DNA of 57,758 nucleotides, taken from Pseudobdellovibrionaceae bacterium (GTDB taxonomy: Bacteria; Bdellovibrionota; Bdellovibrionia; Bdellovibrionales; Bdellovibrionaceae). Location of the stretch: the NCBI GenBank assembly GCA_016785955.1, contig JAEUWH010000019.1:1-57758 (forward strand). The letters run 5' to 3'. The position numbers were made by a program, and so were the translations under genes. Shown here in pieces: positions 4,466 through 49,313 of this stretch. Each line of letters opens with the position of its first letter. The stretch's first letter is position 1. The notes beneath the pieces were generated by a model. The model was not told the origin of the DNA. It made no database searches and worked only from the letters and a program-made list of their open reading frames with translations.

Positions 4466-5253
4466 TCTATCAACAAACAGGCGACATCGGTTGGCTCCGA
4501 CTGTTTCACTTTATGTAGAGTCTTAGATACCGCCTCTAGCAATAGTTCGCGCACGGCCAGGAAATCTTTCTTACTGATCGAAACTGGTCCGGTGAATTGC
4601 AGTTCTTCCTCCGCAATGGATTCTGTTCTTTCGAGGCCCTTGATCCGCCAGTTGTGGTGATGCCGTGACAAGAAAGGAGATCCCCGCTCGACATGAACAT
4701 GCTGAGTACCCATGGTGTACAAACCATTTTTCTCCAGGCATAACTGGGTATCCACCAGAAAATTTAAAATACCCGCCACCTTCTCGCGCGATATTTGAAA
4801 ACGCTCGGCGATGTCGGCCAACGTTTGGCCCTCTCGAATCGAAGTCGACAACCAAATCGCGCAGTATAAATAACTCGAATAGAAAACTGATTTTTCATAA
4901 TCGCCCAGAATGCGATCCTGATTCACCCGTTCTTTAAGATTCAGCGATTCAATTTTTAATTTCTGTAATTTTTTAATGTAGTGATCTTTCAGGGGTTTCG
5001 TTCCAGATCGTTCGATTTTAAGTAGCGTCAAAAAATACTCGGTCTCAAGTTCATTTAGCCCAACAAACCGGGTCAGCAAAAGTCCATGCTCTTCTGTAAA
5101 GTCTTTCGTACCCGATAGGACTTGACTGATTTGCGAGGGATCGACGTTCAAATACTCGCCAATAGATTTGACTAAACCACGGCCTTTGCGAGGCTGGTTT
5201 TCGATAAAATTCTTTAAAAATAGCTTATAATCGTCAAATTCAAATACCTTCAT
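4444..5253 (-). CDS. TIGR02147/DUF4423 family regulator
   Basis: This 269-residue protein has the family N-terminus (MKVFEFDDYKLFLKNF), an HTH at about residues 28-58 (IGEYLNVDPSQISQVLSG) and the DUF4423 C-terminal region with VFYSSYLYCAIW. A further winged-helix-like part covers about 140-170. It is divergent from the secreted HExxH protein at 5412, with an inverted repeat in the shared promoter. It is co-directional and nearly contiguous with the two exported proteins downstream, so it may regulate both sides. It is closely similar in layout to the product at 487. Confidence 0.85.
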   Translation of the reverse strand: MKVFEFDDYKLFLKNFIENQPRKGRGLVKSIGEYLNVDPSQISQVLSGTKDFTEEHGLLLTRFVGLNELETEYFLTLLKIERSGTKPLKDHYIKKLQKLKIESLNLKERVNQDRILGDYEKSVFYSSYLYCAIWLSTSIREGQTLADIAERFQISREKVAGILNFLVDTQLCLEKNGLYTMGTQHVHVERGSPFLSRHHHNWRIKGLERTESIAEEELQFTGPVSISKKDFLAVRELLLEAVSKTLHKVKQSEPTDVACLLIDWYWLKK

Positions 5254-36828: not shown

Positions 36829-37311
36829 GTGGCACAGCTTCAGTTTAAACTTGATTCAAAAATTGGTCCTCTGTACGTCGTGACCTCGGAAAAAGGCCTT
36901 CGTGGAGTTTTTTGGACAAAGCAAAAAGTCCCAATGAGCTTAGTTCTCGATGGATCATTGCCTGAAGTGAAAAACATGACCAAAGCCATTAATGAAATCA
37001 GCGAATATCTAGAGGGCAAACGGAAAAAATTTGATCTCTTGCTGGATATCGAAGGAACTGAATTCCAAAATAAAGTTTGGACGGAACTCCTGAAAATTCC
37101 CTACGGGAAAACACGTTCCTATAAGGAAGTGGCACAAAGGATCGGAACCAACGGCATTCGAGCGGTGGGAACCGCGAATGGCAAAAATTCACTTTGTATT
37201 GTAGTCCCTTGTCACCGAGTGATTGCAACCGGTGGTGGTTTGGGCGGATACTCGGGTGGCCTCGATATAAAAAAACGTCTTCTTGATCTTGAGCAAGGAA
37301 ACAATCTATAA
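36829..37311 (+). CDS. ogt: Methylated-DNA-[protein]-cysteine S-methyltransferase
   Basis: The 160-residue protein carries the active-site motif PCHRVI (Cys about residue 127) after NGIRAVGTANGKN, with a helix-turn-helix EVAQRIGTNGIRAVG and the GGYSGGLDIKKRLLDLE ending. It removes O6-alkylguanine lesions by transferring the alkyl group to its own cysteine. The start is GTG with AAGGAG 8 bases upstream. The length fits Ogt/MGMT without the Ada N-terminal domain. A 32-bp perfect hairpin begins 3 bases after the stop. Confidence 0.95.
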   Translation: MAQLQFKLDSKIGPLYVVTSEKGLRGVFWTKQKVPMSLVLDGSLPEVKNMTKAINEISEYLEGKRKKFDLLLDIEGTEFQNKVWTELLKIPYGKTRSYKEVAQRIGTNGIRAVGTANGKNSLCIVVPCHRVIATGGGLGGYSGGLDIKKRLLDLEQGNNL

Positions 37312-37313
37312 AG

Positions 37314-37385
37314 TGTAGAAGTTAGGACTTGATCTGACACATCTTGGATAGAAAAGATGTGTCAGATCAAGTCCTAACTTCTACA
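37314..37385. repeat. Perfect 32-bp inverted repeat (hairpin) after ogt
   Basis: Arms 37314-37345 and 37354-37385 are perfect reverse complements over 32 bases, with an 8-base loop. It is far longer than ordinary terminators. It could end ogt transcription, but length and perfection suggest a mobile-element remnant or a structured recombination site. The first tRNA fragment lies 135 bases further on. Confidence 0.85.
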
Positions 37386-37519
37386 GATTAATTGATATGA
37401 ATTCCGCTTTGTCCACTGATTTTCAAAAACGTCTGCGACCAACATTAAAAATTTTAGTCAAGCAGGCAAACAAAAATTATCCATACTTTCTAGGAAATTT
37501 TTAAATTTTAGAATAAAAC

Positions 37520-37581
37520 TGGTGTCTGTAGTGGACTCGAACCACTGACCTCTTCCATATCAAGGACGCGCGCTACCAACT
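37520..37581 (-). repeat. tRNA 3'-end fragment A (anticodon-loop GAT)
   Basis: Read on the minus strand this runs from the D-loop (AGTTGGTAGCGCG) through an anticodon arm with loop TTGATAT, a variable region and a T arm (AGTGG TTCGAGT CCACT) to a terminal CCA. The 5' acceptor strand and most of the D arm are missing, and the 3' acceptor is one base short, so it cannot be a functional tRNA. The 37585 gene stops 3 bases before it. It resembles the attachment-site remnant left when an element integrates in a tRNA 3' end. Confidence 0.8.
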
Positions 37582-38768: not shown

Positions 38769-39128
38769 AGCTTATTTTACCTTTTCTTAGTGTAAAGTCA
38801 ACTTTACACTATTTAAATTCGGCATCTTATTGAAATAACTAAAGATATAATAAAAAAATCCCATTTTGATACAACGACTACTCTAAAGTCGTACCTTAGA
38901 AATGATTTTTATAAGCTACTGAATTAGTTTGGAATTTTGGTGCGAATAACTGGACTCGAACCACTGACCTCGTCCATGTTAAGAACACGCGCTACCAATA
39001 CTAATTTTAAAGGTATGTTAAAATAGACGTCCTAATGGAATTTAAGGCATTTGAGAGGGCAAAAATTGTCCTTGTGTATAAGTCTCTACAGATGAAAAAA
39101 GCAGGCAAAGTAAGTATAATTTTCTGTA
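38769..39128. other. Intergenic region holding tRNA fragment B
   Basis: No gene. It contains the promoter of the HTH gene (minus), tRNA fragment B at 38938-39000 and the promoter of the cytochrome gene (plus, ATG 39129). Confidence 0.5.
38938..39000 (-). repeat. tRNA 3'-end fragment B (anticodon-loop AAC)
   Basis: On the minus strand it starts ATTGGTAGCGCG, has an anticodon arm with loop TTAACAT, then AGGTCAGTGGTTCGAGTC as in fragment A, and ends TATTCGCACCA with correct acceptor length. The 5' acceptor and D-stem are absent. One T-stem pair is mismatched. It separates the toxin-antitoxin-like pair from the cytochrome gene. Confidence 0.8.
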
Positions 39129-40824: not shown

Positions 40825-40885
40825 TGGTGGTCTGCAGTAGACTCGAACCACTGACCTGGTCCATGTAAAGGACGCGCGCTACCAA
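40825..40885 (-). repeat. tRNA 3'-end fragment C (anticodon-loop TAC)
   Basis: On the minus strand it begins TTTTGGTAGCGCGCG, has an anticodon arm with loop TTTACAT (Val anticodon), a T arm that pairs with one G-T wobble, acceptor GCAGACC and a terminal ACCA. Of the three fragments it is the best preserved, and its matching 5' acceptor (GGTCTGC) is not found adjacent. It closes the second interval, after the cytochrome gene. Confidence 0.8.
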
Positions 40886-41080
40886 AATACACTTACTATC
40901 CGAAAGATTTACTATTAAAAAATAAGATAGCGATCTGCTAATTTTTCATGAATGGTTATGCTTAGATATTGAATTGACTTACGATTAGCTGCGAATACGT
41001 TAGATTTCAAACAATGCTTTTTAGAATTCAAAAATTCATCTATATCGTCTGCAACTATGGCCGGTTAAATTTACATCTTC

Positions 41081-41201
41081 AAAGAGAATAGGCGTGAGCA
41101 CAAGGCCTTGGGAACCATAAGTTAGTTGTATCTGATTTGAAGATCATCAAGCAGGATGATACTTTTTGAAACTGATAAAATACGGTTTATTTGTCCTAGC
41201 C
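41081..41201 (+). repeat. 120-bp dispersed repeat, copy 1
   Basis: It starts near AAAGAGAATAGG and ends TTTGTCCTAGCC. Inside are the palindrome CAAGGCCTTG and a small stem CATC-N6-GATG. It is nearly identical to copy 2 and present in inverted orientation as copies 3 and 4. Its right end supplies the stop codon that closes the TraD-like fragment at 41196. Confidence 0.9.
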
Positions 41202-41402
41202 CTCCCTAGTCGTTCCTTCACCCACGATTTCTGTTGAATCGATTTCTTTTGAGTTCGTGATTCTTTGGGTTATTTTCTGAATCTCTTTAGTCCCGAAACA
41301 CCGCGAGAAAAACTCGGCCGAATCGGGATCGTCGATTCGCAAAACAATTTTAGTGGCCACATTGTCCGTGATTCTATTTAAAAAGCCTTGCGACACTTCC
41401 AT
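41196..41402 (-). pseudogene. TraD-like coupling protein fragment
   Basis: The 68 residues after ATG 41402 (TDNVATKIVLRIDDPDSAEFF, CFGTKEIQKITQR) resemble part of a TraD/VirD4-type conjugative coupling protein, in my reading of the family. A complete protein is over 500 residues. The frame ends inside repeat copy 1, whose last bases provide TAG. AAAGGAG precedes the ATG, but an in-frame extension reaches 41441. I take it as a remnant of a conjugative element cut by the repeat. Confidence 0.45.
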
Positions 41403-41643
41403 AACGTCTCTCCTTTCAAGATTTTTTGTTACAAGAAGCATTTGTTTTTTATAAAAATCAGGAAGTGGGTCTACGGCGGGCTGGCTATAAATAGCCGTTT
41501 TGCCAGCGACCTAGTACGAGTAACATTCGATACTTACGAAGCATTTGCCACTCAAAAAAATAGCAAGAAATGCGGCAAGCACCAAAAGCCAAACGCAAGC
41601 CATTCATAAGCCAATCAGAGGCTGTGAACGGCAGTTCCCCTGA

Positions 41644-41862
41644 ATGCATTTTCTTTCATCCCGTGCCATTAATCCTGATGCTCACGGAATTCCAAATGAA
41701 ATTTTTGCCCGCGTTCGCGAGCTTTTGACGGAACAGGAAATGTCAGACCTGACTTATTCCGTGGGAGTGATTAATTTTTACAATCGATTGAACTTTGCAT
41801 TTCCTAAAGCACCAGGCACCCTGGATTCACTTTTTGGACTTGATAAAGCGGGATTAAAATAA
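41644..41862 (+). pseudogene. Carboxymuconolactone decarboxylase-family C-terminal fragment
   Basis: The 72-residue frame contains FARVRELLTEQEMSDLTY and VGVINFYNRLNFAF, the C-terminal signature of AhpD/carboxymuconolactone decarboxylase-like proteins (LTEQEMVDLT..INAWNR). The N-terminal domain with the catalytic CxxC is missing, so the gene is truncated, probably by rearrangement in this repeat-rich region. It is convergent with the methyltransferase gene at 41867. Confidence 0.6.
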
Positions 41863-41866
41863 TTGT

Positions 41867-42595
41867 CTAGTTAGGTTTACGCCCGTGAACACCCGTCGCG
41901 CACCCGAAGAAGTGTTCGAAGTAATCTGATTCCAAACCCGCGGCTTGCACTTGTTCATGAAAGAAGCGGCTATTTCCAAATTTCCCGGTGTAAACACCCA
42001 GATGACGATAGTTGTCTGGGTTTCCTAAACATATTTTACCAATCATAGGGATAAATAATTTCAAATAAAACTGCAGACCAAATCGCAACAAAGAATTTCT
42101 TGGTACAGAAATTTCAATGAAAGAAAATTGACCACCCGGTTTTAGAATGCGTGCCAATTCTTTAGCAAATCGCGCCTGTTGTTCTTGTGAAAACGTCTTT
42201 AATCCGAAAGAACAGACTACCGTATCCGCGGAACCATCGGCGATATTTTTGTCAAAAATGTCGGCTTCGATGACTTCCGTTTCAAATTGATTTCGGCCAG
42301 CTTCGACTTTTGCTTGGTCACACATTTTCGAAGAGAAATCGATACCAACTAATTTTTCTGGCGGCTTCAGATCACTGCGGATAACTGAAAAGAGTTCCCC
42401 CATTCCCGACATTAAATCCACCATAACTCCAGGGGCTCTGTTACGATCTAATTTTGCAATCACGTATTTTCGCCAAATTATGGTGAAACCTAAGGATGCA
42501 ATCATATTCACGACTCCATACGTAGTCGACATTTCATTAAAGAGTTCTTTGACGGCCGAGGGGTTGTAGATATCTTTTTGTTGGGAAGGATGCAT
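41867..42595 (-). CDS. UbiE/COQ5-like SAM-dependent methyltransferase
   Basis: The 242-residue protein has a class I methyltransferase core: VMVDLMSGMGELF (motif I, about 57-69), LVGIDFSSKMCDQAK, VIEADIFDKN, ADTVVCSFGLKTFS and LKPGGQFSFIEI. The last two are typical of UbiE/MenG quinone methyltransferases. N-terminal FNEMSTTYGVVN also fits. Substrate could be a quinone or another lipid-soluble compound. It stands alone near repeat copy 1. Confidence 0.85.
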   Translation of the reverse strand: MHPSQQKDIYNPSAVKELFNEMSTTYGVVNMIASLGFTIIWRKYVIAKLDRNRAPGVMVDLMSGMGELFSVIRSDLKPPEKLVGIDFSSKMCDQAKVEAGRNQFETEVIEADIFDKNIADGSADTVVCSFGLKTFSQEQQARFAKELARILKPGGQFSFIEISVPRNSLLRFGLQFYLKLFIPMIGKICLGNPDNYRHLGVYTGKFGNSRFFHEQVQAAGLESDYFEHFFGCATGVHGRKPN

Positions 42596-42618
42596 GAAAG
42601 GATACTAGCACTGGAACA

Positions 42619-42641
42619 GCGGCTTCTCAATAAGAAGCCGC
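42619..42641. terminator. 9-bp perfect hairpin between genes
   Basis: GCGGCTTCT (42619-42627) and AGAAGCCGC (42633-42641) form a stem with a 5-base loop, just downstream of the minus-strand metalloprotease stop (42650) and upstream of the methyltransferase start. Likely a terminator of the protease transcript, without a T-tract. Confidence 0.5.
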
Positions 42642-42649
42642 AGGAAATA

Positions 42650-43864
42650 TTACATTTGTCCTAAAATGTCTGCGTAGATTTTACCTTGAAATTCAGTGGT
42701 CACCGTCGCGGATCTATCATTGTACATGGTCACGATGACCGGACGATAAACATTATTAATTTTATCGTAAACTTTCGATCTGAATGTAACCGACTTTTCA
42801 ATTTTGCCATAATACGCCGTATTTACTCCAGGCAAAACTTTTTGTTCTTTCGGTAAAAATATTTTTAGCATCGCCGTTAAATGTCTATAGGCAGAGTCAT
42901 CAATAATCTGTTCCATCCGAACGGTCTCTTTTTGCGAATACTTATTTGTGCCAAAGGTTACATCTAAAATATATTTACCATTTTCGAAACCGATGGTTTG
43001 ACCATAGCAAGATATTTCAAAATCAATTCCGAAGAAGGCGTTCAGGACACTAGTTCGCGGACCTATTCCGTTGGATAGTTGATGCACTTTTTTACCATTG
43101 CGTAAGACTTCGCTGACTACCATGCCCATACACATTTCTGTTTTCAAGTTAGATGCAGATCTTGCGATTTTAAAGACGTCGTAATTTTCTAACTCGGATT
43201 CAAAATTAGTATCCTTAAAAAATTTCAGTAAACCTGGAGTCATTATCATTTCGACATAATTTTCGTCCATAAGGCTCACGGAATTGTGGCTTAATCCAAA
43301 CACGTGACCTAACTCATGAATCATCACCATTAAAGTTAATAGTCCTTTGCTAGAACTCCACGCCTTAGTTTCTATCTGCGGTCCCGACAATGCCAGTGGT
43401 CCCTTTTCTGGCGAAATATAAATGAAACCTTTGCCGCGCATATTAACGCGATCGTAGTCTGTCCTAACACTAACAGCCACTTTTCTATCCAAGTCCGGCA
43501 GCTGCGACATTTGTTTAAGGTCGATCAAGCCAAACTGAAGTTTTAAATCCGTCGTTGGTTTACAACTTTCCAAAGCAAAATTCAGCTTACTTAAAATAAA
43601 ATCCTGACCCCAGCCTGACTGGCCTTTAAATTGTCGCATCCAAAAGTCGATTCCCCTTTTCGTGATGCTTTCCGCTTCTGATCGGCTCAATCCAAAATTG
43701 GCTTCGTCAATCACTACACAGTATTTAATATCGGGGTTGTTATTCAAAAACCACGGGTTAACAGCGTCACCCATGATTTCGCCGCCACCGACGACCCAGC
43801 CGCCCGCGAAACTAATTTGCGTGATCGATAAAACTAAAAATAAAATGCTTTTTATGTACTTCAT
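42650..43864 (-). CDS. Secreted metzincin-type metalloprotease candidate
   Basis: The start at 43864 is preferred because AAGGA lies about 10 bases upstream and the signal peptide (MKYIKSILFLVLSITQISFA) then begins the protein; a frame extension to 43909 is less likely. The mature part begins GGWVVGGGEI. Residues 183-193 read HELGHVFGLSH, the full metzincin zinc motif HExxHxxGxxH, with a Met in SLMDEN or MIMTPG as the likely Met-turn. The C-terminal ~170 residues are an unassigned beta-rich domain. It is divergent from the TIGR02147 gene at 44051. Confidence 0.85.
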   Translation of the reverse strand: MKYIKSILFLVLSITQISFAGGWVVGGGEIMGDAVNPWFLNNNPDIKYCVVIDEANFGLSRSEAESITKRGIDFWMRQFKGQSGWGQDFILSKLNFALESCKPTTDLKLQFGLIDLKQMSQLPDLDRKVAVSVRTDYDRVNMRGKGFIYISPEKGPLALSGPQIETKAWSSSKGLLTLMVMIHELGHVFGLSHNSVSLMDENYVEMIMTPGLLKFFKDTNFESELENYDVFKIARSASNLKTEMCMGMVVSEVLRNGKKVHQLSNGIGPRTSVLNAFFGIDFEISCYGQTIGFENGKYILDVTFGTNKYSQKETVRMEQIIDDSAYRHLTAMLKIFLPKEQKVLPGVNTAYYGKIEKSVTFRSKVYDKINNVYRPVIVTMYNDRSATVTTEFQGKIYADILGQM

Positions 43865-43993
43865 ATTTCCATCCTTAAAAACAGTAGTTTGATTCAAATT
43901 TTTGTTCAATCGATAAGATCCTAAGACGTCTCTTACAAATCGTTACCTTATAGAGTCATTCTAGCCGAAGCCAGGAAATCGTAAATTATTTAG

Positions 43994-44034
43994 TTAATAA
44001 TTATTTAAAATAGTGTTAACTTTTAATTAACCAC
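43994..44034. promoter_or_regulatory. GTTAA-type repeats before a TIGR02147 gene
   Basis: The interval between the protease start and the ATG at 44051 contains GTTAATAATT near 43994, GTGTTAAC near 44015 and AATTAACCAC near 44027. GTTAAT and ATTAAC give an inverted arrangement, with GTTAAC in the middle. TTAAC also appears in the palindrome at 443-471. Confidence 0.35.
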
Positions 44035-44050
44035 TAAAGTCTAGGGAAAA

Positions 44051-44869
44051 ATGAATCTATTCGAATATACGTCATATAGAGATCTGATTAAGGACAAAAT
44101 TGTCAGCCTCAAACAGTTGAATTCAAAATACACTTTTGACGGGTTGGCTATTTCAATGAGTATCCACAAACCATATTTGTCAAAAGTGCTTAACCAAAAA
44201 GGAAACTTCACAAGCGATCAACTATTTAAATGCTGTCAGTATCTAAAACTCACTGAAATTGAACGACACTATTTCTTGGCATTGTACGAAGAAAACACGT
44301 CGACCCTGCAAGAAAGAAAAAATGTTCTTAACGACACCTTAGAAAAAATTCGCCGAAAAGCTTTGAAAAGCTCTTCGATATATAACGAAGAAGAATCCAT
44401 CGCGAATTCTTTGCAAATGACTAATTACTTTATAGATCCGCATTATCCTCTGATTCACATGTTTTTATTAATTAAGAAATATCGCGACGACCTGGATTTG
44501 ATTTCTGAAAAATTAAATATTTCCAAAGAAAAACTCAGCGAATACATCGAAAACCTTCACTATCTAAATATTATCGAAAAACGGGGACGCGATATCGTCG
44601 TTCAAAAAGAATTCGTTCGGCTTCCTGAAAATTCGCACATGATCACGGCTTTCCGCAGTTTATCTAAAGCCAAGTCATTGGAAAAAATCAATCAGACGTC
44701 CACGGACAATTATCTATCGATGCACGTATTTTTTACTGCCGACGAAAACGGCCGCAATAAAATTCAAAAGCTATTTCTGGAATTCCTAGAAGAAGCGAAA
44801 AAAATATCAGATAAATCGAAAACGGAAGACGTCCTGCAGCTTAATTTCGATTTATTGAAATGGACTTAG
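44051..44869 (+). CDS. TIGR02147/DUF4423 family regulator
   Basis: The 272-residue protein has the family start MNLFEYTSYRDLIKDKI, an HTH at about 28-60 (ISMSIHKPYLSKVLNQ) and the DUF4423 region, with a winged-helix part at about 145-180 (ISEKLNISKEKLSEYI). It is divergent from the metzincin gene, 186 bases away. This arrangement matches the pairs at 82/487 and 4444/5412. Confidence 0.85.
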   Translation: MNLFEYTSYRDLIKDKIVSLKQLNSKYTFDGLAISMSIHKPYLSKVLNQKGNFTSDQLFKCCQYLKLTEIERHYFLALYEENTSTLQERKNVLNDTLEKIRRKALKSSSIYNEEESIANSLQMTNYFIDPHYPLIHMFLLIKKYRDDLDLISEKLNISKEKLSEYIENLHYLNIIEKRGRDIVVQKEFVRLPENSHMITAFRSLSKAKSLEKINQTSTDNYLSMHVFFTADENGRNKIQKLFLEFLEEAKKISDKSKTEDVLQLNFDLLKWT

Positions 44870-44945
44870 TTTAAACTGCGCCCATCATATTTACTAGTTT
44901 TCAATTTATCGATGTCGATGCCATCAAACCAACGCGCGTTCACTG

Positions 44946-45240
44946 CTACCATGGGTGTTCCATCCCCCCAAGTGCCGTTGCCAACTTTACTTTTAATGCA
45001 CCTGCATCTATTTTATCCAACCAATCCGGTTTATCTGGATGGTCTTGTAAGTCGATGCCACTAACGAACGTTGCGTAACCACCGATAATCACCATAACTA
45101 ATAAATTGGCCACCATTGTGATATCCACCAACGGCAACACGCCCAACATCAAAACTTCTTCAGTGATTGTATTCACCGTCGCGACTAGATGAATAAGTTC
45201 CACGATGAATTTGTAAGTGTACAATAAACCCGCAACGATC
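44946..45240 (-). pseudogene. YqhA/UPF0114-family gene fragment
   Basis: The frame encodes YKFIVELIHLV, VLPLVDITMVANLLVMVIIGGY and WLDKIDAGALKVKLATAL, the middle of a YqhA-like inner-membrane protein (full length about 165). The open frame continues upstream of its TTG (IVAGLLYTYK) and is cut at about 45240, where repeat copy 2 begins. The C-terminal third is also lost. A gene broken exactly at a repeat boundary suggests insertion or recombination there. Confidence 0.65.
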
Positions 45241-45241
45241 T

Positions 45242-45361
45242 AAAAAAAATAGGTGTGAGCACAAGGCCTTGGGAACCATAAGCGAGTGTATCTGATTTGA
45301 AGATCATCAAGCAGGATGATACTCTTGCAGAGTGATAAAATACGGTTTATTTGTCCTAGCC
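45242..45361 (+). repeat. 120-bp dispersed repeat, copy 2
   Basis: Same orientation as copy 1 and about nine in ten bases identical. It keeps CAAGGCCTTG and CATC-N6-GATG. At the site where other copies read ACTTTTTGAAACT it has ACTCTTGCAGAGT, which forms a better local stem. It abuts the yqhA-like fragment. Confidence 0.9.
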
Positions 45362-45477
45362 TTGCTCGGGTCTTACATGGAAGTAGCAAACTTAGAAGCA
45401 CTTTGGACGGACATCTCGCAGAAAAGCACCCACTGAATCGGAGACACTTGATAAATTGTTGTCTCAATAGTGGTATT

Positions 45478-45645
45478 CTACATTTTATAAAATTCTACAC
45501 ATTGATTTTTTGAACTGTTTTTTAAACTATCTTTGAATTTTTTAGCAAATTCTTTAAAATACTCTACCTTATCATATTTCGGATAATTTTTATCCGAAGG
45601 AGCTTTGGGATCATAGAATACCAATTTATCTATTTTATATAACAA
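45478..45645 (-). CDS. Possible small ORF
   Basis: A frame of 55 codons with a TTG start at 45645 encodes a Lys/Tyr-rich peptide (KLVFYDPKAPSDKNYPKYDK, EFAKKFKDSLKN). It lies 10 bases after the 45656 gene. It could be a real downstream gene or the shifted tail of that gene. No ribosome site. Confidence 0.3.
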   Translation of the reverse strand: MLYKIDKLVFYDPKAPSDKNYPKYDKVEYFKEFAKKFKDSLKNSSKNQCVEFYKM

Positions 45646-45655
45646 TTCTGCTTTT

Positions 45656-46567
45656 TTAAGACTCTATGTCGGATGAAAGAATTTTTTGTAGATGCATAAA
45701 AAGATTTTTGCCGCTAACTTCTAGTATCGCATCAGGATATGAGAGCTCTGGTTGAAAATACTTTTGATCAACTTTTCTCGTGCCAAATAAATTTCTGTAT
45801 GCCCTTTCATGAATTGGACTACTAACATCAATAATAAAAATGGTTTTTTCTAGAGTTCTGTTGTCATGCATATAAGAATCTATTAACCACTTAAATATGG
45901 CATTTCGAACTTTTCTCAGTTCTGCAGAGTTAAGGTCAAAACTTAGGGAATATTTACCAATTTCAAAAATTCTGTAATTTGCATTTCTAAGAGCGGTAAA
46001 ATAGGCGGTTTCAATTTGTTTTGACTTTAAAATCTCTTCAGCAGGCAAGCTCCCTCTGTTCCCATCAATTACTCTTAGGAAGCCAACGAGCTTTCCTTCT
46101 GCTGATTCAACTCCAGCGTAACCAAGTTGGTTGTTTTTATAAAAATCATTAAAGTTTTTCTCATCAAGCTCAGATACAATTTCTTTTTCAGACTCAGAAA
46201 GCCTTTTGCCATAACTCCGGTGGACAAGGTCAATACCACGGCTTGCATCGTTAGCCCACGAGGGATCAGAGAAAATCTCTCCTTGAAGCCCGAATCCTCG
46301 GGGTAGGCTTGCCCATCTGGAGGTAGTCTGTTGAGCTCCAAAAGTCACATTAGACTGATGAACTTGACCATGATAATACCACCAGCCATCCCACCAATTA
46401 GTGCCTAATTTTGGTGGTTGTCCGTCTTTAAATACGACACCTGTCAGTTTAAAATTCTTGATAAGATGTTTGTTTTGAATTGGCCCATATAACTTTAAAC
46501 ACTGAATATTCGCGTTTGATATAAGACTAAATAGTATTAAAAGTGATAGGATTTTATCACAAGGCAT
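45656..46567 (-). CDS. Exported GNAT-like protein
   Basis: The 303-residue product has a signal-peptide-like start (KILSLLILFSLISNANIQC). The central region contains GYAGVESAEGKLVGFLRVID, RIFEIGKYSLSF and HERAYRNLFGTRK, which look like strands and the acyl-CoA loop of an N-acetyltransferase-type fold. An exported GNAT would be unusual, as acetyl-CoA is cytosolic. The hydrophobic start may instead be a cytosolic N-terminus or a mis-set start. The sequence is AT-rich compared with the 9-30 kb genes. Confidence 0.5.
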   Translation of the reverse strand: MPCDKILSLLILFSLISNANIQCLKLYGPIQNKHLIKNFKLTGVVFKDGQPPKLGTNWWDGWWYYHGQVHQSNVTFGAQQTTSRWASLPRGFGLQGEIFSDPSWANDASRGIDLVHRSYGKRLSESEKEIVSELDEKNFNDFYKNNQLGYAGVESAEGKLVGFLRVIDGNRGSLPAEEILKSKQIETAYFTALRNANYRIFEIGKYSLSFDLNSAELRKVRNAIFKWLIDSYMHDNRTLEKTIFIIDVSSPIHERAYRNLFGTRKVDQKYFQPELSYPDAILEVSGKNLFMHLQKILSSDIES

Positions 46568-46657
46568 ATTTAGACATAGCGCAAAGATTTTGCCAGATGT
46601 TAAGGTAAAGTAATCAGCGTCAGTAAGAGAATAGTCATGTGTCTATCTATTCGTCAA

Positions 46658-47248
46658 TTAAGAGAGCAATAGCAAGATCTCATGAGTCGTTTTTTTGATG
46701 CGAGAATCAATATCCTGTTCTGTTGGCTCTATAATCATTTTAAAAATCTCACCAACGAGTAAACTATGTATGGTAATTGCTTTTTCTTTGGGATTTTTAA
46801 TATTCCAGCTATTTTCACGATTTCCCTGTGCAATAAGGGCGTGTATACGAAGAGTTCCATCATTTTTAATTTTCTGATAAACTTCCATAGCTGATCTGGA
46901 TGTCATAGCGTAATAATAAAGTCCTATAAGTAGCGCATCTTTTTTCCTGTTTTTATAAGAGTATTGCATATTTTGCTCTACCATTGATACAAGTTGTATT
47001 TTAGCTGACAGTAAAGAGTTCGAATGACCGTCTATTGCGGCTTGGGCTTCTTGAACCCAATGAAGACAAGCGGAAGTAATGATATAATTCATAGACTTAA
47101 AGTGTTTGTATATCCCTTGCTGACTTATGCCGACTTTATTGCTGATATCATTTAAAGTAATAGAATAAAATCCTTTTGCAAAAACCAAGTCTGTAAAAGC
47201 TTTTAAAATAAATAGCCGAGTATTTTCACCTTTTGATACTTTCCTCAT
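46658..47248 (-). CDS. TetR-family regulator
   Basis: The 196-residue protein has the TetR HTH near residues 25-65 (ITLNDISNKVGISQQGIYKHF), then a helical ligand-binding domain. It is divergent from the small secreted protein gene at 47389. A 16-base palindrome lies in between, a likely operator. A transport or envelope target is possible but not visible. Confidence 0.85.
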   Translation of the reverse strand: MRKVSKGENTRLFILKAFTDLVFAKGFYSITLNDISNKVGISQQGIYKHFKSMNYIITSACLHWVQEAQAAIDGHSNSLLSAKIQLVSMVEQNMQYSYKNRKKDALLIGLYYYAMTSRSAMEVYQKIKNDGTLRIHALIAQGNRENSWNIKNPKEKAITIHSLLVGEIFKMIIEPTEQDIDSRIKKTTHEILLLLS

Positions 47249-47293
47249 AAGTTATTATAATCATAAAAAACATTAAAATTCATATTTTTAACT

Positions 47294-47309
47294 AAAATGT
47301 TAACATTTT
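47294..47309. promoter_or_regulatory. 16-bp perfect palindrome, probable TetR operator
   Basis: AAAATGTTAACATTTT is fully self-complementary and lies 46 bases before the TetR gene start and 80 bases before the secreted protein gene. Confidence 0.5.
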
Positions 47310-47388
47310 TAACTTTTTAGTTGACTTTATTAACATATAGCGTCATTATGATTTTCACAACGCTCAACCAAATCCTCAAGGAGATTAT

Positions 47389-47737
47389 ATGAAAAAAAAT
47401 GTCAACAATTCTTATCACTATGCTAATAGCATCAACAACTTTTGCATCTGGGTTTGCTGTCTGCACAGCTACTTGCTTAATTAGCTTTCCCGGAAATGAG
47501 CTAGGTGGGTTAAAAACTAATGTCACAAGCGCTGGAAATTCAAAGCCTGAAGCGCTCTTGAAATTATCTCAAAAATGTGACGAGCTTACCGTCGCTTCAA
47601 AAAAAACATGGGGATTCACCGATAGAACTACTGGACAGCTAATTACTAGCTTCGACGGTTCTCCTGGTGGATCATGGCAAGGTACAGGGAGATATATAAA
47701 ATTAGATTTTAATGTTTCAGCTGCTTGTGCAGAATAA
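47389..47737 (+). CDS. Small secreted cysteine protein with poly-A frameshift at its start
   Basis: The strong ribosome site AAGGAG serves the ATG at 47389, but that frame stops after about 31 codons. A second ATG at 47399, in another frame, encodes a clear signal peptide (MSTILITMLIASTTFASG) and about 95 mature residues with Cys residues in AVCTATCLI, KCDEL and SAACAE. Between the two ATGs is a run of eight A (47392-47399). Removing one A would give MKKMSTILI... in one frame. So the gene is either switched off by slippage, translated from the second ATG, or affected by a sequencing error. Confidence 0.6.
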
Positions 47738-47815
47738 TTTCTGCAAATACAAGCCACATTATGGCTAGTATAATTTTTTGAGTCAGTTTCTCATGACTGA
47801 CCAGTTGAGCTTAAA

Positions 47816-47935
47816 GGCTAGGACAAACAAACCGTATTTTATTAGTTTCAAAAAGTATCATCCTACATGATGGTCTTCTAATCAGATACACTCGCTTATG
47901 GTTCTCAAGGCCTTGTGCTCACACCTATTCTCTTT
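47816..47935 (-). repeat. 120-bp dispersed repeat, copy 3 (inverted)
   Basis: Reverse complement of copies 1 and 2, starting GGCTAGGACAAA and ending CCTATTCTCTTT. It keeps CAAGGCCTTG and the CATC-N6-GATG stem with a changed loop. A 12-bp hairpin starts 4 bases after it. Confidence 0.88.
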
Positions 47936-47938
47936 ACA

Positions 47939-47971
47939 AAGAACGAAAAGGGTGAAGATCTTTTCGTTCTT
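47939..47971. terminator. 12-bp perfect hairpin beside repeat copy 3
   Basis: AAGAACGAAAAG (47939-47950) and CTTTTCGTTCTT (47960-47971) form a perfect stem with a 9-base loop. It could terminate transcription from the secreted-protein gene reading through copy 3. On the other strand it lies in a short open frame beginning MKVGDTVEIL, probably a relic. Confidence 0.45.
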
Positions 47972-48436
47972 CATTAAAATTTCTACGGTATCACCGACTT
48001 TCATAAAGGGAGTCTCTGCAAATTATTTATCCAATAACCATTTCCAGGCGGGCACCACTTTATTTGATTTCAGGCTACCTGACTTTATTTTGCATATAAA
48101 GCTTCCTTTCTAGGGCAGATGTATGCACGTATTGACTCATAGATAAACGATACCAAGGAGCGGTCAGTTGTAATCGCATTGACTTGAATTAAAGGTAACT
48201 TTGGAAGGTTACAGGGTTTTGAGTCAGTTCGACCCCGTGATTAGTTGGACAGGACGATCGCGTATACAATTATTGCCATAACTATGTGTTAAACCTATTT
48301 ACACCGTATATACTTAATATTCCTAGTACTTAGTTAAAGTCCTATATAAATGTAGAAATGTTTAACAAAAAATAGGCCCATTTCTATATGGCATCTTCTT
48401 GCAGCATTTTAAAATCTAAAGCAATGGAGTTACACA
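47972..48436. other. Gene-free interval
   Basis: No convincing gene. It contains relic-like fragments and the promoter of the secreted protein at 48437. A short pattern CGGTCAGTTG near 48154 resembles CTGACCGGTTGA-type strings near 48996 and 57615. Confidence 0.35.
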
Positions 48437-48919
48437 ATGAAATCATATATTTTTACTTTAATTTTTATAATGGGACTACATTTTTGTATTGCTGAAACGA
48501 TAACTGTTACACCCTCGGTTCTTTTAGGAAATGGAATTACATATACCAAAGGCCCATTCGAAGCGAATTTAGAACTACTTAAAGCAGCCCAAGCGAGGAC
48601 TCAGCATGCAGGAAGTCTTTTAAAGCAGTTTAATAATAAAATCCAAGTTACCGGCAGTGATTTAATTAGTATGTTTTGGTCCTGGAATTACTTAAAGGGG
48701 CAACTTCAGGTCGATGCAGATAGAATGAGAGTACTATACGGAAACCGTCTTTCTCCGGCAGATAGTGATTTTTTATTGGAAGTAGCAAAAGGAACGATAC
48801 AAGGGTTTAAAAGTTATCCTGACATTGCAACTCTAAGATATAACGTAAGTAATTATGATTTTATAACGCGCCTATATAATATTGTTCTTGATGTAATGAA
48901 ATTGGAAACCGGAAAATAG
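48437..48919 (+). CDS. Small secreted protein of unknown function
   Basis: The 160-residue product has a signal peptide (MKSYIFTLIFIMGLHFCIA, cleavage about 19) and a helical mature domain (AQARTQHAGSLLKQF, TRLYNIVLDVMKLETGK). AATGGAG precedes the ATG. No cysteines in the mature part and no recognised family. It lies between repeat copies 3 and 4, so it may be carried as cargo. Confidence 0.65.
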   Translation: MKSYIFTLIFIMGLHFCIAETITVTPSVLLGNGITYTKGPFEANLELLKAAQARTQHAGSLLKQFNNKIQVTGSDLISMFWSWNYLKGQLQVDADRMRVLYGNRLSPADSDFLLEVAKGTIQGFKSYPDIATLRYNVSNYDFITRLYNIVLDVMKLETGK

Positions 48920-49313
48920 AAGAATAGTTTTTGCTTTGTCCTTTTTGAATTAAATTGGTTAATATTTTGAGCGATCAACAAACCCTCCGTTACTGACCGG
49001 TCGTCGAGTGCTTGCTCGACTTTGAAAATGAGCAACGCTGATTGTCTCGGGAGAGTTCTTTAGCCCTGATTACGAGGATAGGTCTCAACGGACAGCATTT
49101 GTGCGTTTATTTCGTCCCAATCCTTAACCAGCAGCTTAGTCAGAAGGCCTAGGACAAATAAACCGTACTTTATCAGTTTCAAAAAGTATCATCCTACTTG
49201 ATGACCTTCAAATCAGATACACTAACTTACGCTTCCCAAGAGCTGTGCCCTCCCCTATTCTCTTTAATTTTCGGCCGCATCGCTCGCACGCAAGCATATT
49301 CTTGCTCCTTGGG
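48920..49313. other. Interval holding repeat copy 4
   Basis: No gene. Copy 4 occupies 49146-49266. The string CTGACCGGTC near 48996 is similar to CTGACCGGTT near 57614. Confidence 0.4.
49146..49266 (-). repeat. 120-bp dispersed repeat, copy 4 (inverted, most diverged)
   Basis: Same orientation as copy 3. It has lost the CAAGGCCTTG palindrome (reads CTCTTGGG on the repeat strand) but keeps CATC-N6-GATG and both ends. It ends 48 bases from the stop of the Rieske oxygenase, the last gene of the terpene operon. Confidence 0.85.

Follow-up and report, generated by a model that had tools for sequence, protein, structure and literature searches.

A short, recently multiplied non-coding repeat with sharp ends at broken genes in one accessory part of a Pseudobdellovibrionaceae genome

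The stretch of DNA analysed here, which we call the window (57,758 nucleotides, contig JAEUWH010000019.1 of assembly GCA_016785955.1), raises the question of what kind of sequence recurs four times between 41 and 49 kb and why its ends coincide with those of interrupted genes. A first-pass annotation, made from the letters alone, had proposed a dispersed element, MITE-like or a structured site used by a recombinase. We found the four copies at the places and on the strands that had been given, although their true borders are slightly wider (Table 1). The motif CATC-N6-GATG is indeed present in the four copies, and CAAGGCCTTG in copies 1–3. The two contacts with broken genes were also described correctly. 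The TraD/TrwB-like fragment meets the right end of copy 1 with its C-terminal side, the frame being open up to the border and the element providing the stop codon, and the left end of copy 2 truncates the UPF0114 (YqhA) fragment on its N-terminal side, again with a frame that is open to that border. The N-terminal half of UPF0114 was absent from the two right-flank frames scanned beyond copy 2. There is little understanding of small bacterial repeats that have neither inverted ends nor target duplications, and for most of them the mobiliser is not known. The family described here is young (it includes identical copies), small, simple to score by PCR or sequencing, and marks gene breakage precisely, so that its movement can be tested, as can its role in breaking up an accessory region in the genome of what is probably a predatory bacterium.

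Table 1. Element copies in the window and truncated genes found at element borders there and on other contigs.
Feature	Position in window	Strand	Description
Copy 1	41078..41203	+	Subfamily A, one extra internal T; 97–98% to consensus; left flank TT; right end CCTAGCCCT
Copy 2	45239..45363	+	Subfamily A; left border TC-TAAAAAAAATAGG; right end CCTAGCCTT
Copy 3	47814..47938	-	Subfamily A; left border TG-TAAAGAGAATAGG; right end CCTAGCCTT
Copy 4	49145..49268	-	Subfamily A, most diverged in window; 91% to consensus; right end CCTAGGCCT
TraD/TrwB-like fragment	41196..41441	-	PF10412 E=4.6e-5, PF12696 E=6.2e-5; profile stops at 94/126
UPF0114 (YqhA) fragment	44946..45238	-	PF03350 E=1.9e-23; profile begins at 18/117
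FadB-like fragment			ECH_1 match begins at 110/251 (Pfam)
Aldo/keto reductase fragment			Match begins at 70/291 (Pfam)
Integrase fragments at borders			One C-part, one N-part (Pfam)

The borders were set from the base composition of the left and right flanks over 25 copies. The unit is ~125 bp long, non-coding and sharply delimited on both sides: the sequence is fixed from a T at position -2, followed at -1 by any base except A (C in 11, G in 8, T in 6 and A in none of the 25 copies), up to the right end, and is random outside. The left end reads T-[C/G/T]-TAAAGAGAAT and the right end TTTGTCCTAG[C/G]CCT, also given as TCCTAG(C/G)CCT. Clear terminal inverted repeats were not found when the ends were read directly; the only resemblance between the ends of subfamily A is AGRG..TAGG, which neither subfamily B nor the congener described below has kept. 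A scan for target duplications over the borders of the 25 copies gave no general signal. There were 6-bp direct repeats within 10–12 bases of both borders in four of the 25 (permutation p ~0.001), the clearest being ATATAG at the copy C74:12089, the only one of the four that is flush at both borders. With the left border placed at T(-2), flush left/right matches of 6–9 bases between different copies were not found, and this same-copy ATATAG is the sole flush match of 6 bases.

The host genome (G000, 4.34 Mb) is a fragmented draft of 124 contigs, and clustering and orientation were judged within contigs. A similarity search gave 40 matches, ~24 of them nearly full length, and the E-values of the full copies (4e-50 to 2e-34) exclude chance. 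A covariance model trained on 23 copies marked 37 places, full, partial or diverged (the weakest few may be chance), i.e., about 33 besides the four in the window. Four copies (C15:160, C15:9060, C74:9986 and C74:12089) are identical over 123 bases, so the amplification was recent; a diverged subfamily B is found at C114:3678, C28:8770 and C110:6123. Apart from the 41–49 kb part of the window, the copies are clustered on a few small, IS-rich contigs (they were found on the small contigs C74, C32, C15, C63, C118, C50, C29, C86 and C114, plus C19, C28 and C110), and the genome-wide model search found none on the large contigs C38, C42 and C57. All six copies on C74 and five of the six on C32 lie on the same strand, while C15 and C19 carry copies in both orientations. 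By GC skew, 12 of 15 informative contigs have the top strand of the element on their G-rich strand, a borderline preference (p ~0.04, contigs as units). Partial copies are of both kinds: some have only the right end, with an exact terminus, and others only the left end (C86, C15:8643, C110:6123 and, in the congener, C83:8114). At two places a right end lies directly against the interior of another copy. A further candidate right end, C21:7337, was discarded, as it may be a chance match within a carboxypeptidase gene.

Outside the host, a BLAST search among 60 relatives found the element in one congener only, the metagenome-assembled genome Bdellovibrio sp. 28-41-41 (G001, NCGL01000029.1), which was also the sole match of a two-end pattern among 84,980 species genomes. 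The covariance model detected further copies in this congener, most of them on a contig of 25 kb (C83) with eight copies, all on the same strand. Five of these eight lack the left 37–41 bases, the rest of the sequence being nearly identical and the right end exact. Over its whole length the element is only 69% identical in the congener, yet both end sequences are kept, and internal blocks (CCTTGxGAAxCATAAG) are conserved across two genera. The model search also found one weak relative in another genus (G016, E=3.7e-4), with end sequences kept less exactly, and no element in 138 of the 141 genomes of the order. From this distribution, the window probably belongs to a Bdellovibrio relative. No real match was found in phage, plasmid and viral collections, and the literature available to us gave no description of a repeat of this kind in Bdellovibrio. 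Near one of the congener copies there is a group II intron D1–D4 piece (RF02005, 64.5 bits; L136 ~4713–4950, minus strand) that starts 36 bp past the right end.

At many copies a gene is broken off on one side of the element and unrelated DNA follows on the other, and in many an open frame reaches the element border exactly. The truncated families are unrelated to each other (FadB-like, UPF0114, aldo/keto reductase, integrase and TraD-like). The proposal of the first-pass annotation was to be given up if no genome held other copies or if the copies always lay inside one conserved gene family; copies do occur elsewhere and are not confined to a single family. In four of four cases (C50, C63:3676, C19:45241 and C118:7096) the missing half of the gene was not found across the element, two of three frames having been scanned for the last two flanks. 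A stretch of 282 bp, consisting of a gene end plus the element, is present at C15:1-282 and at C74:13105-13386 (99.3%), and in each the DNA beginning exactly past the right end is unrelated. Among the copies we saw no constant gene neighbour nor a constant orientation relative to genes. The DNA between them contains BrnT, AbiEi/AbiEii and, in the congener, ParE, together with many genes for secreted proteins and transposases that we take to be IS481- and ISLre2-like. In one such interval (L032:5452-7406) a large lipoprotein-like gene and a small gene behind it are arranged as a toxin and its immunity protein might be.

The annotation had also seen, in a CATC stem kept while its loop varies, a sign of selection on structure. 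This part could not be sustained: no pair is changed on both sides, and neither subfamily B nor the congener keeps the stem intact, so that we rejected CATC/GATG as a selected structure. A stable single-stranded DNA fold, as subterminal hairpins of an IS200/IS605 derivative would give, was not supported either: as ssDNA, the folding energy of single copies shows no excess over that of shuffled sequences (z -1.6 to +0.8). No consensus fold was predicted on a diverse set of copies, and no match to an Rfam family was found at the element. Within the close set a different hairpin, formed by GTATC/GATAC with TTTGA/TCAAR, outperforms the CATC stem (95.7% paired, four cells with compensatory change), as scored on the same sequences from which it was derived.

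We searched for an enzyme that could mobilise the element, and compared the element with known classes. The host has a single weak match to PF01797 (Y1, RAYT-like), at the edge of C94, where there is no copy, and a RAYT/Y1 partner was rejected on this ground; PF04986 (Y2 transposase) has no match in the host genome. An IS91-like frame that abuts a congener copy had suggested an IS91 partner. However, the terminus of the genuine IS91-like copies in the genus is CCTATCCTC, unlike the right end of the element, and the frame is another broken flanking gene. The integron integrase (TIGR02249) was not found in G000, G001 and G016 (the best match reached 62 bits, the cut-off being 265), nor are the attC core boxes RYYYAAC/GTTRRRY present, the element ends being TBTAAAGAGAAT and TTTGTCCTAGSCCT. 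The host has ten tyrosine recombinase places, of which only a truncated gene (C118) is on an element-bearing contig. No IS with the ends of the element was found in the contigs read or by a right-end scan of the genus. The element is short (< ~300 bp), non-coding and multicopy, as MITEs are, and it is recombination-associated and probably mobile; the proposal of a MITE-like element stands to that extent and falls in the strict sense, in that clear terminal inverted repeats and a regular target-site duplication are lacking. The short hairpins with linked RAYT of REP/REPIN sequences are not seen either, the unit being 125 bp long and the RAYT-like match non-adjacent. Most small mobile repeats end in inverted repeats with TA termini and duplicate their target (PMC2229807). 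Like ERIC, RUP, Correia and similar repeats, the element is non-coding, <200 bp and present in many copies in and between genes, in a group whose mobiliser is mostly not known (PMC2229807), but here those terminal features are absent or irregular and the copies are clustered. The Yersinia repeat YPAL/RU-2 (168 bp), compared by properties only, also lacks TA termini and has inverted repeats that are internal rather than terminal, but it duplicates 3–26 bp of its target and is an abundant repeat (PMC2229807). Non-autonomous derivatives of IS200/IS605 share the absence of terminal inverted repeats and target duplication, the exact ends and a possible strand preference (lagging-strand targeting is described for IS200/IS605 in PMC6006769), whereas our element has no linked Y1 transposase and, instead of a strict left target of 4–5 bases, only a T followed by not-A. 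The rolling-circle elements IS91/ISCR are similar in having neither inverted repeats nor duplication and in being tied to broken and captured genes, and differ in the right end and in the lack of a Y2 transposase match in the host. Integron attC arrays are also clusters of mostly same-strand, 100–140 bp non-coding sites between accessory genes, and what separates them from the element is the integrase and the core boxes.

That the element is non-coding, recently multiplied and associated with recombination, with ends at broken genes, is well supported. Judging from the sequences, we favour, as probable, a lineage-restricted, non-autonomous mobile repeat of ~125 bp that has multiplied recently in one accessory, IS-rich part of the genome. 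Its best class would be an unusual new variant of bacterial small mobile repeats, with the following putative mechanism. A recombinase acting in trans would insert the element. We suggest only tentatively that it might be an HUH-type enzyme working on single-stranded DNA, rather than a classical DDE transposase, because the ends are precise without inverted repeats or duplication and there is a weak strand preference. Later, like-oriented copies could have undergone homologous recombination with loss of the intervening DNA, so that one element remained between half of gene A and half of gene B. A single copy at C15:8516-8645 has the frame of a halved integrase gene ending on one side, and on the other begins a frame (...GIIHHSDRGVQYA...) that we read as IS3-type; half genes facing each other across one copy are the outcome expected from a deletion between two inserted copies. 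On the other hand, small mobile repeats usually spread over many intergenic regions, whereas the present ones are limited to a small portion of the genome. The direct repeats at four of the 25 copies are not predicted by a strictly duplication-free mechanism, and a transposase with matching ends was not found.

The clustering could also be explained if the element were the recombination site of an array system. An integron integrase joins DNA at attC, and a recombinase would here do so at the element, each stretch of 1–5 kb being a captured cassette. The distances between neighbouring copies (1–5 kb) agree with this, as do their prevailing single orientation on C83, C74 and C32, the toxin-antitoxin and Abi modules of the cargo, and the 282-bp gene end plus element that is followed by different DNA exactly past its right end. 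We nevertheless find it unlikely, given that C15 and C19 have both orientations, that many stretches are gene fragments and not whole cassettes, that integron integrase and attC boxes are missing, and that the intact tyrosine recombinase genes sit on other contigs. Rather improbable, too, is its more specific form, an undescribed array-building system of Bdellovibrio relatives in which DNA rich in toxin-antitoxin and secreted-protein genes would be taken up or swapped precisely at the ends of a mostly same-strand 125-bp site by an enzyme other than the integron integrase; if true, a cassette site of this kind would represent an integron-like system outside integrons.

An ordinary MITE, derived from a DDE-type IS by internal deletion, with inverted ends that have degenerated and target duplications that rearrangement has removed, would have the size, copy number and non-coding nature of the element. 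The ends are imperfectly alike (AGAGAATAGG and AGGGCTAGG), 6-bp direct repeats are close to both borders in four copies (flush in one), and the region is rich in IS. Yet subfamily B and the congener no longer show this likeness, duplications split by recombination between copies were not seen, and no IS with the same ends is present in the contigs read, so we hold this origin to be improbable. A SINE-like, retro-inserted small RNA, in which a reverse transcriptase copies a short transcript, would yield copies with a precise 3' end whose 5' ends vary, just as in the left-truncated array copies of the congener and the right-end-only copies of the host, and the intron piece past one right end would fit as well. 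We think this very improbable in view of the left-end-only copies, the little sign of RNA structure and the single intron association. Very improbable as well is a family of fixed regulatory or small-RNA genes that segmental duplication has dispersed, without mobility of its own: the internal blocks conserved across two genera would suit such a family, while the absence of a constant neighbour or Rfam match and the flanks that are unrelated to the exact base speak against it.

Other repeats were observed in the same contigs. An IS481-type element is inserted inside an element copy at L033:2558-3840, with a 7-bp duplication (AATAAAC), and at 37309-37390 of the window two IS481-type terminal repeats (TGTAGAAGTTAGGACTTGATCTGACACATCTT and its inverse) are placed head to head, ~8 bp apart, being an IS481-derived mini-element or an excision remnant. 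Copies of an ISLre2/UPF0236-like IS, with ends GATACCGTT, border several element-rich contigs, and contigs break at this IS at the starts of the window, L036, L090, L088, L039 and L089. Repeated tRNA-like fragments without the 5' acceptor part were found in the window (37524-37579, 38943-38998 and 40830-40885) and on C86 (4397-4464, L038); their anticodon loops differ, ARAGORN calls no tRNA in them, and they are possibly remnants of tRNA-targeting insertions. Finally, regulators of the DUF4423 (TIGR02147) type recur beside secreted-protein genes, at 44051-44869 of the window and on several element-rich contigs.
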